In this document: positions 19,892-21,818 of the stretch, in pieces | Layout: the number at the start of each line of letters is the position of its first letter | How positions within the stretch are numbered: the first letter of the stretch is position 1 | Source: Gammaproteobacteria bacterium | GTDB lineage: Bacteria > Pseudomonadota > Gammaproteobacteria > Steroidobacterales > PWYM01 | Assembly (NCBI GenBank): GCA_003567855.1 | Contig: PWYM01000232.1 | Coordinates: 1 to 33,836 of the forward strand | DNA length: 33,836 nt | Direction of reading: 5' to 3' | Position numbers and translations under genes: made by a program | Notes under the pieces: model-generated | Database searches by the model: none | What the model saw: only the letters and a program-made list of their open reading frames with translations | Told to the model about the DNA's origin: nothing

Positions 19892-20923
19892 TCACGCGCC
19901 CTCGACGCGCTCGCCGTCTTCGGATTTCAGGCTGCGCGTCATCAGCGTGACGACCGCCTCGCGCGGATCCAGGCCATCGTGGAGCACGTGATGGATCTGC
20001 TCGGCGATGGGCATGTCCACGTGGTGTGCGCTGGCGACGTCGTGGACCGCACGCGCCGCGGCCACGCCCTCGACGACCTGGCCGATGCGCCGCTGTACCG
20101 AGCCTGCGTCTTCGCCGGCCGCCAGCGCAAGTCCGAAGCGTCGGTTGCGCGACTGGTCGTCGGTGCAGGTGAGCACGAGGTCGCCGATGCCGGCGAGCCC
20201 CATGAACGTGTCGCGGTGCGCACCCAGCGCTTCACCGAGCCGCGTCATCTCGAGCAGCCCGCGCGTGATCATCGCCACGCGGGTGTTCGCGCCGAAGCCC
20301 AGCCCGTCGGAAATGCCGGCGCCGATCGCGAGCACGTTCTTGACCGCACCGCCGACCTCGACGCCGACGATGTCGTCGGAGGTGTAGGCGCGGAAGGTCT
20401 CGCTGGAGATCGCCTGCGCCAGGCGCGCGGCGAATGCGGTGTCGCGTGACGCGACGACCATTGCCGTCGGCAGGCCGCGGCCGACCTCGTGCGCGAACGT
20501 GGGCCCCGACAGTACCGCGCCGGGCAGCGCGGCCCCGAACACGCTCGCGACGACCTGGTGCGGCAGCAGGCCGCTGCGCTGCTCGAAGCCCTTCGTCGCC
20601 CAGGCCAGCCGCGTCGGCGGCACCGGCAGTGCCGCCAGTTCACCGAGCAGCGCGCGCAGCGCATGGCTCGGCACCGAGATCACGATGTCGGCGTCGTCGC
20701 CTGCGGCCGCCGCGAGCGACGCGGTGACCTTCAGCGTGTCGGGGAACGCCGCGTCCGGCAGGTAGCGGGTATTGCAGCGTTCGCGCGCGAGGGTCGCGAG
20801 CGCTTCCGGATCGCGGCCCCAGAGCCGCACCTCGTGCCCCGCCCGCGCAAACTGGATCGCGAGCGCGGTCCCCCATGAGCCCGCGCCGAGGACCGCTACG
20901 GGCGTGTCGTGCGCGGCGCTGAT
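19892..20923 (-). CDS. gpsA: Glycerol-3-phosphate dehydrogenase [NAD(P)+], non-canonical start
   Basis: GpsA reduces dihydroxyacetone phosphate to sn-glycerol-3-phosphate for phospholipid synthesis. Landmarks are the nucleotide-binding VLGAGSWGTALAIQFA, ATKGFE, VLSGPTFAHEVGRGLPTA, GGAVKNVLAIGAGISDGLGFG and GLAGIGDLVLTCTD. The only ATG in frame (20830) would delete the NAD-binding loop. Between the upstream in-frame stop and the loop there is no ATG, GTG or TTG. ATC at 20923-20921 sits eight bases after GAGG, would give MISAAHDTPVAVLGAGSWG and a normal 343 residues, and is my preferred start. A sequence error is possible. It is last in the yibN-grxC-secB-gpsA run. Confidence 0.85.
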   Translation of the reverse strand: MSAAHDTPVAVLGAGSWGTALAIQFARAGHEVRLWGRDPEALATLARERCNTRYLPDAAFPDTLKVTASLAAAAGDDADIVISVPSHALRALLGELAALPVPPTRLAWATKGFEQRSGLLPHQVVASVFGAALPGAVLSGPTFAHEVGRGLPTAMVVASRDTAFAARLAQAISSETFRAYTSDDIVGVEVGGAVKNVLAIGAGISDGLGFGANTRVAMITRGLLEMTRLGEALGAHRDTFMGLAGIGDLVLTCTDDQSRNRRFGLALAAGEDAGSVQRRIGQVVEGVAAARAVHDVASAHHVDMPIAEQIHHVLHDGLDPREAVVTLMTRSLKSEDGERVEGA

Positions 20924-20933
20924 CGGGCCGGCC

Positions 20934-21488
20934 TCAGTGCGTGCTGCTGCCGGTCACGCCGGCGGTGGCTTCCTGCGCGGCCGGCGTCGAGCCCTCTGCC
21001 TGCTGCTCTGCCTGCGACTGCATGTACACCGCATCGAAGTTGATCGGCTGCAGCAGCAGCTGCGGGAAACCGCCGCGCGAGACGAGCTCCGACACGGCCT
21101 CGCGCGCGTACGGGTACAGCACGCCGGGACAGTAGCTGCCGAGCAACGGGCGCATCTGCTCCTCTTCGTAACCGCTGACCTGGAAGATGCCCGCCTGCTG
21201 GATCTCGACGAGAAACAGGCTGCGCTCCTCGGCACCCTTGGCGTCGACGGTGATCGTCAGCACGACTTCCCACGCATCCTCGCCGACCTGGCGCGAGGCG
21301 CTCTTCAGGTTGAACTGGATCTGCGGTTCACCGACCTGGCCGCTGAACACCTGCGGACTGTTCGGTGATTCGAAGGACAGGTCCTTGAGATAGATTTTCT
21401 GCAGCACGAGCTGGCGCTGTGCCTGGTCCGCGGGCTCGCCGCCCGGTGCGACTGCACCCTGGCCGTCGGAATTCTGTTCGTCGCTCAT
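20934..21488 (-). CDS. secB: Protein-export chaperone SecB
   Basis: SecB keeps preproteins unfolded and delivers them to SecA. The 184-residue protein has the family core LVLQKIYLKDLSFESPNSPQ, VVLTITVDAK, LFLVEIQQAGIF, and CPGVLYPYAREAVSELVSRGGFPQL followed by LLQPINFDAVYMQ. It is somewhat longer than E. coli SecB (155) because of an N-terminal polar stretch of about 20 residues and a low-complexity, Ala/Gln-rich C-terminal tail. It lies between grxC and gpsA, the conserved gammaproteobacterial order. Confidence 0.97.
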   Translation of the reverse strand: MSDEQNSDGQGAVAPGGEPADQAQRQLVLQKIYLKDLSFESPNSPQVFSGQVGEPQIQFNLKSASRQVGEDAWEVVLTITVDAKGAEERSLFLVEIQQAGIFQVSGYEEEQMRPLLGSYCPGVLYPYAREAVSELVSRGGFPQLLLQPINFDAVYMQSQAEQQAEGSTPAAQEATAGVTGSSTH

Positions 21489-21527
21489 CTGGGGTTCCTG
21501 TCGGTTATTGATCTGGGGAGAGCTGGA

Positions 21528-21818
21528 TCACGGTGTCCGATTGGCGGCCAGCGCATCGAGCCCGCCGCGCGTGTCGAGCGCGTGCAGTTCGTCGCAGCCG
21601 CCGACGTGCGTGTCACCGATGAAGACCTGCGGCACCGAGGTGCGTCCCGCCGCCCGCGACTCCATCTCGTCGCGCAGTGCCGGCTGGAGATCGACGCGAT
21701 GCTCTGTGTAGGCGATGCCGCGCTGGTCGAGCAGGTGCTTCGCGCGGATGCAGAACGGGCACCAGCCCGTGGTGTAGAGCACCACCTCGGTGCCCGCGTT
21801 GTCGGCGCGCGCGCTCAC
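21528..21818 (-). CDS. grxC: Glutaredoxin 3
   Basis: GrxC reduces disulfides and mixed disulfides with glutathione. The 96-residue protein has the active site TTGWCPFCIRAKHLL, the cis-proline loop TSVPQVFIGDTHVGGCDEL, and the usual thioredoxin-fold length. The start is GTG at 21818, which overlaps the stop of the rhodanese-like gene as GTGA. The short N-terminal SARADNAG precedes the first beta strand. Coupled expression with yibN is likely. Confidence 0.94.
   Translation of the reverse strand: MSARADNAGTEVVLYTTGWCPFCIRAKHLLDQRGIAYTEHRVDLQPALRDEMESRAAGRTSVPQVFIGDTHVGGCDELHALDTRGGLDALAANRTP

Follow-up and report, generated by a model that had tools for sequence, protein, structure and literature searches.

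The gpsA frame and its proposed start codon

The gene gpsA makes the glycerol-3-phosphate backbone of phospholipids, and the copy found in the window (by which we mean the whole 33,836-nucleotide stretch of DNA that was analysed) raises a simple question: where could translation begin if its frame holds no ATG, GTG or TTG ahead of the NAD-binding loop? This absence, first pointed out in a sequence-only reading, is confirmed when the frame is read directly from the TGA at 20956-20954 onward, as none of ATG, GTG, TTG, CTG, ATT or ATA occurs between that stop and the Rossmann motif VLGAGSWG. The features on which the argument turns are the following.

20934..21488, minus strand: secB, upstream of gpsA (NCBIfam NF004393 and TIGR00809, both above cut-off)
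20954..20956, minus strand: in-frame TGA 5' of gpsA, bounding the open frame
20936-20934, minus strand: TGA stop codon of secB, read from the sequence
20932..20935, minus strand: Shine-Dalgarno-like GAGG, 8 nt ahead of ATC and overlapping the secB stop
20921..20923, minus strand: proposed start codon ATC, which, of the near-cognate codons from the in-frame stop to the NAD-binding loop, is the only one to have a Shine-Dalgarno
19892..20923, minus strand: gpsA, NAD(P)H-dependent glycerol-3-phosphate dehydrogenase, as read from ATC 20923 (343 codons plus stop)
20870..20887, minus strand: GAGSWG nucleotide-binding loop, lost with a start at GTG 20830
20828..20830, minus strand: GTG, the first canonical codon of the gpsA frame, from the frame reading

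The gene is identified as gpsA by NCBIfam NF000940 (E 1.1e-135, above cut-off); Pfam PF01210 and PF07479 both match the protein, the former from residue 8 of the 342-aa query, and the GxGxxG loop is present. Translation from ATC 20923 would give 343 codons as against 339 in E. coli gpsA (annotated coordinates), and the codon does lie 8 nt after GAGG with 10 bases between it and the secB TGA; the placement and the family-length product that had been put forward for it both hold up. Two further near-cognate codons, ACG 20905 and ATC 20857, either lack a Shine-Dalgarno or lie past the motif. Folding of the RNA of this secB-gpsA junction gave nothing beyond shuffled sequences (z 0.70), and no promoter or terminator matches were found in 20700-21700. 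ATC 20923 is quite probably the gpsA start, and we put at roughly 0.78 the probability that the gene is intact and functional and is initiated on a near-cognate AUC.

The codon at 20830 had been described as ATG; it is GTG, but the accompanying remark that a start there would remove the nucleotide-binding motif is correct. The availability of this in-frame canonical codon might suggest that gpsA is decaying, or that it is translated from GTG 20830 only, as a truncated protein. We regard this as extremely improbable, as the GTG start deletes the NAD-binding loop of a gene whose body is intact, conserved and under purifying selection, with third codon positions varying most, and which is the sole good gpsA match in its own genome (two other hits match only in part, at 25 and 35% identity).

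Recurrence within the order

Relatives were collected in a first search (59 genomes searched, 56 matched) and in an order-wide search (396 genomes, 363 matched at E 1e-60), and junctions were read at 153 loci from 152 genomes, one genome being represented twice. One part consists of 53 loci (L003-L032 and L136-L158) from the first search, chosen when no start had yet been read and covering 53 of its 56 matched genomes. The other 100 were chosen after family f6 had been seen to be rich in cases: 23 best matches of the order-wide search, 57 hand-picked loci with f6 favoured, and 20 more, mostly from f6 but also from f12 and f15. At 24 loci the motif-based finder gave no secB stop, and canonical codons were then sought within 25 codons. 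Some of the named relatives (UBA1844) we take to be Woeseiaceae.

A usable canonical gpsA start is missing in 43 of the 152 same-order genomes, a count that is not an unbiased fraction because f6 was favoured in the sampling, so that family-wise counts are more informative. In the set taken before starts were read, 13 of 53 are noncanonical, the window included. Among the 43 genomes, 35 have no canonical codon at all, six have one only deep in secB and two allow only a very short form. By locus, the 153 divide into 109 canonical, 35 with none, seven with a canonical codon only deep inside secB (these are six genomes, L172 and L216 belonging to one) and two with only the very short form. Loci with none make up 25 of 46 in f6, three of three in f9, three of 11 in f5, two of four in f3, the single locus of f2, one of five in f1 (the window itself) and none of 48 in f10. 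Among the noncanonical genomes are G064, which is closed in a single contig, and G089, assembled in six contigs.

For a view from outside the order, a class-wide draw (85 of 94 matched) supplied 68 loci (28 + 40) from 83 matched genomes outside it, three of which were unparsed; here a canonical codon was sought at most 30 codons before the glycine loop, a criterion slightly unlike that used within the order. A canonical start was found in 64 of the 65 parsed loci and not in one. Comparison of 35/152 with 1/65 gives a Fisher p of 1.7e-5, uncorrected for relatedness and for the oversampling of f6, and the absence of a canonical gpsA start in the order is more than chance. A set of 80 named loci yielded 79 that could be parsed, of which 77 are canonical and two have none (L034 and L036, both f6 members already counted). 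The single outside case, L374 (genome G485, from another order), carries, behind a G-rich stretch, an ATT that precedes the first Gly of the loop by 10 codons.

Changes on the tree and the window's own genus

On a quick tree of 152 gpsA bodies (LG+G4, N-terminal part excluded), the canonical/noncanonical label changes 16 times, of which at least nine changes are forced by the starred branches; the count does not give their direction. The noncanonical state is conserved by lineage in the order and clustered on the tree, but in the window's own genus it is found in one of five genomes. There, comparison of the junction in close relatives, which the sequence-only reading had recommended, goes against it locally, as the four same-genus genomes have GTG or ATG, whereas the order-wide recurrence speaks for it; within the genus, then, the evidence for the state comes from a single draft genome. 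In three of these relatives (G001, G003 and G004) the sequence is GTG AGC GCC where the window has ATC AGC GCC, a match made by eye, as the window has one codon more ahead of the motif and the MAFFT alignment does not place the two codons in a shared column. The stretch from start to Rossmann motif evolves fast and carries no codon-position signal (97, 87 and 110 differences at the three positions over 27 close pairs), so that its coding status lacks independent support.

Neighbouring genes and infC

The start codons of other genes were examined on 20-kb stretches from 20 genomes chosen because their gpsA is noncanonical, together with the window, covering 18 conserved families and 288 ORFs. 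Whereas gpsA is without a canonical start on all 21 stretches, by choice of the genomes, only 10 of 267 ORFs in the other 17 families were flagged, seven because an ATG lies just past the anchor and three because they are fragments. These counts show that loss of the canonical start is specific to gpsA among neighbouring genes.

The textbook IF3-autoregulated gene, infC, offers a useful standard. In 20 genomes of the order its start reads ATC in 18, ATT in one and ATA in one, with a GGAGG-type Shine-Dalgarno in most; as some of these frames also contain a nearby canonical codon (TTG or GTG), the infC start, too, is read by comparison. In the window's own genome (L275, G000:C293) infC appears to begin on ATC, 8 nt after GGAGG, a spacing equal to that of gpsA. 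The use of AUC at infC as well as at gpsA could be taken as a sign of a changed initiator tRNA in the lineage, or of a start code that is relaxed throughout. We give this almost no credence: other conserved genes on the same stretches start canonically, G064, G089 and G012 carry a tRNA-Met with a CAT anticodon (30 tRNA loci typed in five genomes), and infC elsewhere is described with an ATT or ATC start (PMC5472188). General relaxation of start codons we reject on the evidence of the control genes.

The same observations bear on the idea that the start codon was misread or misassembled in this particular draft, the true codon being ATG or GTG. The window does come from a draft of 302 contigs that is 87.6% complete, and the GTG or ATG of its congeners is what such an error might have obscured. 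Yet the absence recurs in the 43 genomes, a closed one among them, and is scarcely met outside the order or in neighbouring genes; moreover, two substitutions are required to turn GTG into ATC, and the ATC stands at infC-like spacing. An error in the window is therefore improbable, and as a general cause we reject assembly error in view of the recurrence and of the closed genome. The earlier suggestion of a very rare start codon is strongly supported by the repeated absence of a canonical start at gpsA in the order, by the normal starts of the genes beside it and by the AUC at equal spacing at infC in the same genome. What could not be seen from one stretch of DNA was the recurrence in a lineage, which takes the matter beyond the quirk of a single gene.

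Anatomy of the secB-gpsA junction

In E. coli the two genes meet at TGATG, with stop and start overlapping by 1 nt. The noncanonical loci of the order offer ATA, ATC, ATT or CTG, rarely GTT, and the codon typically overlaps the secB stop. Family f6, with mostly -1 or -4 overlaps, has junctions that read TGATA, TGATC, TAATA or TAATC, often with GGAG 8 nt away, and others that read CTGA, with CTG overlapping the stop; the f3 junction is TGATT and that of f5 is ATTAG, and in f9 and the window an ATC lies a few bases past the secB stop. Where CAC as the final SecB codon precedes a TGA stop, CTG and ATN adjoin and either could serve; where the stop is TAA, ATN is the only possible start of the pair. 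A Shine-Dalgarno match of at least 4 bases at 5 to 9 nt is present in 24 of the 41 noncanonical loci scored, and some noncanonical loci are thus without one.

Several junctions have features of their own. At L030 and L227 there is neither a canonical nor an AUH/CUG codon, just GTT followed by AGC or AAC, and it may be that at some junctions reinitiation is set by position rather than by the identity of the start codon, with even GUU accepted. Tandem secB stops (TGA TAA or TAA TAA) are found in f6 at L019, L148, L180, L191, L226 and L232, and in these genomes the gpsA ATA begins with the final base of the first stop and is completed by the two bases that open the next one. Some f6 genomes also carry an additional gpsA copy that has diverged, with 38-40% identity to that of the window (L236, L237, G009 and G055); L236 and L237 were left out of parsing.

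The frame of gpsA relative to the secB stop is constant in f6, at 29 of 30 noncanonical and 11 of 15 canonical loci and over several spacings, and the same frame occurs at 32 of 85 canonical loci of other families. As this is nearly always the -1 frame, one might imagine that SecB and GpsA are fused by frameshifting or stop slippage and that no start codon is needed. This seems very unlikely, since a -4 or -1 overlap of stop and start demands exactly that frame, which accounts for the locking in f6, and no slippery run was seen by eye at the listed f6 junctions. Furthermore, gpsA is in frame with secB behind a TAA in f9 and in the third frame in the window, and a single shift cannot serve three frame relations; on this ground we reject the fusion.

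With separate initiation of gpsA retained, the frame locking in f6 makes the proposed coupling to secB plausible there, and in the window, where the genes are 10 nt apart, it is something that we infer. A T follows the secB stop at 21 of 30 noncanonical but 4 of 15 canonical f6 loci (p 0.01, relatedness not removed), and at those 21 noncanonical loci the overlap codon is ATA in 12, ATC in eight, GTT in one and ATG in none. The f6 ATN takes its first base from the secB stop, and a T after the stop could be preferred for termination in its own right.

How gpsA might be translated

In the mechanism that we propose, translation of GpsA would begin at AUC 20923, with the initiator tRNA mispairing at the third base of the codon. 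The 30S complex would be held in place by the Shine-Dalgarno GAGG and, in addition, by ribosomes that have just finished secB 10 nt upstream. Across the order, a junction like the TGATG of E. coli would have lost its canonical start repeatedly, with AUA, AUC, AUU or CUG kept in its place. IF3 is described as excluding weak third-base pairs (PMC10158994), and in E. coli an excess of IF3 lowers re-initiation, the likely reason given being a lacking Shine-Dalgarno (PMC2268962). As IF3 rejects near-cognate codons, and as infC begins on AUC in the same genomes by comparison, synthesis of GpsA should be low and should depend inversely on IF3. By this analogy gpsA genes on near-cognate codons are probably held low by IF3, and the low level of GpsA suggested by the sequence-only reading fits the published behaviour of IF3 at non-canonical starts. 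We infer AUC as the in vivo start, the coupling to secB, the effect of IF3 and the low level of GpsA.

Tentatively, one might go further and suppose that loss of the canonical start has repeatedly put the order's gpsA under IF3 control, and that selection has kept a weak AUH/CUG start overlapping the secB stop; we see this as possible but doubtful. If it were true, the supply of membrane lipid would be tied to two things, the condition of the initiation machinery and the translation of the secretory chaperone. At a practical level, gene finders limited to ATG, GTG and TTG will truncate or miss gpsA in the affected genomes.

Comparison with known systems

Near-cognate starts are documented in very few bacterial genes, and gpsA stands out sharply as a metabolic gene whose start, within a single order, has changed from canonical to non-canonical or back at least nine times. 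For 36 triplets of closely related genomes it was reported that, out of 61,358 ancestral AUG starts, two had switched to CUG and one to AUU, a count built on annotation, which could hide such starts (PMC5622118). Our literature search on gpsA start codons, secB and Woeseia starts found no paper on gpsA starts.

The rare well-characterised non-canonical start is that of infC, ATT in E. coli and ATC in Streptomyces (PMC5472188). It shares with gpsA the near-cognate start, an equal Shine-Dalgarno spacing and the discrimination to be expected from IF3, and the window's own genome has an infC that would start on ATC. However, infC encodes IF3 itself and so closes a feedback loop, whereas gpsA is a metabolic gene behind secB whose start codon varies among relatives. 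Closer in one respect is Streptomyces sigR, which has a GTC start and is repressed by IF3 (PMC5472188): like gpsA, it is a gene other than infC with a lineage-conserved non-canonical start that annotation overlooked. It differs in that IF3 repression is demonstrated for sigR and, for gpsA, would follow from the type of codon. Moreover, sigR conserves GTC itself, in contrast to the AUA, AUC, AUU, CUG and perhaps GUU of gpsA, which has undergone many separate changes and lies at a coupling junction with the gene upstream.

The junction itself has its counterpart in gene pairs known for termination-reinitiation, with stop/start overlaps such as ATGA and TGATG (PMC6728339; reviewed in PMC12548453). 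The f6 secB-gpsA pairs resemble these in their -1 or -4 overlap and in having the Shine-Dalgarno inside the upstream gene, but the codon on the start side of the overlap is none of ATG, GTG and TTG, and in the window 10 nt separate the two genes. The order's gpsA offers a natural setting in which to study how IF3 discriminates among start codons, how ribosomes reinitiate on non-AUG codons and why GpsA might need a weak start. Set beside infC, sigR and the overlapping pairs, gpsA presents a near-cognate and presumably IF3-discriminated initiation that recurs at the coupling junction of an ordinary metabolic gene.
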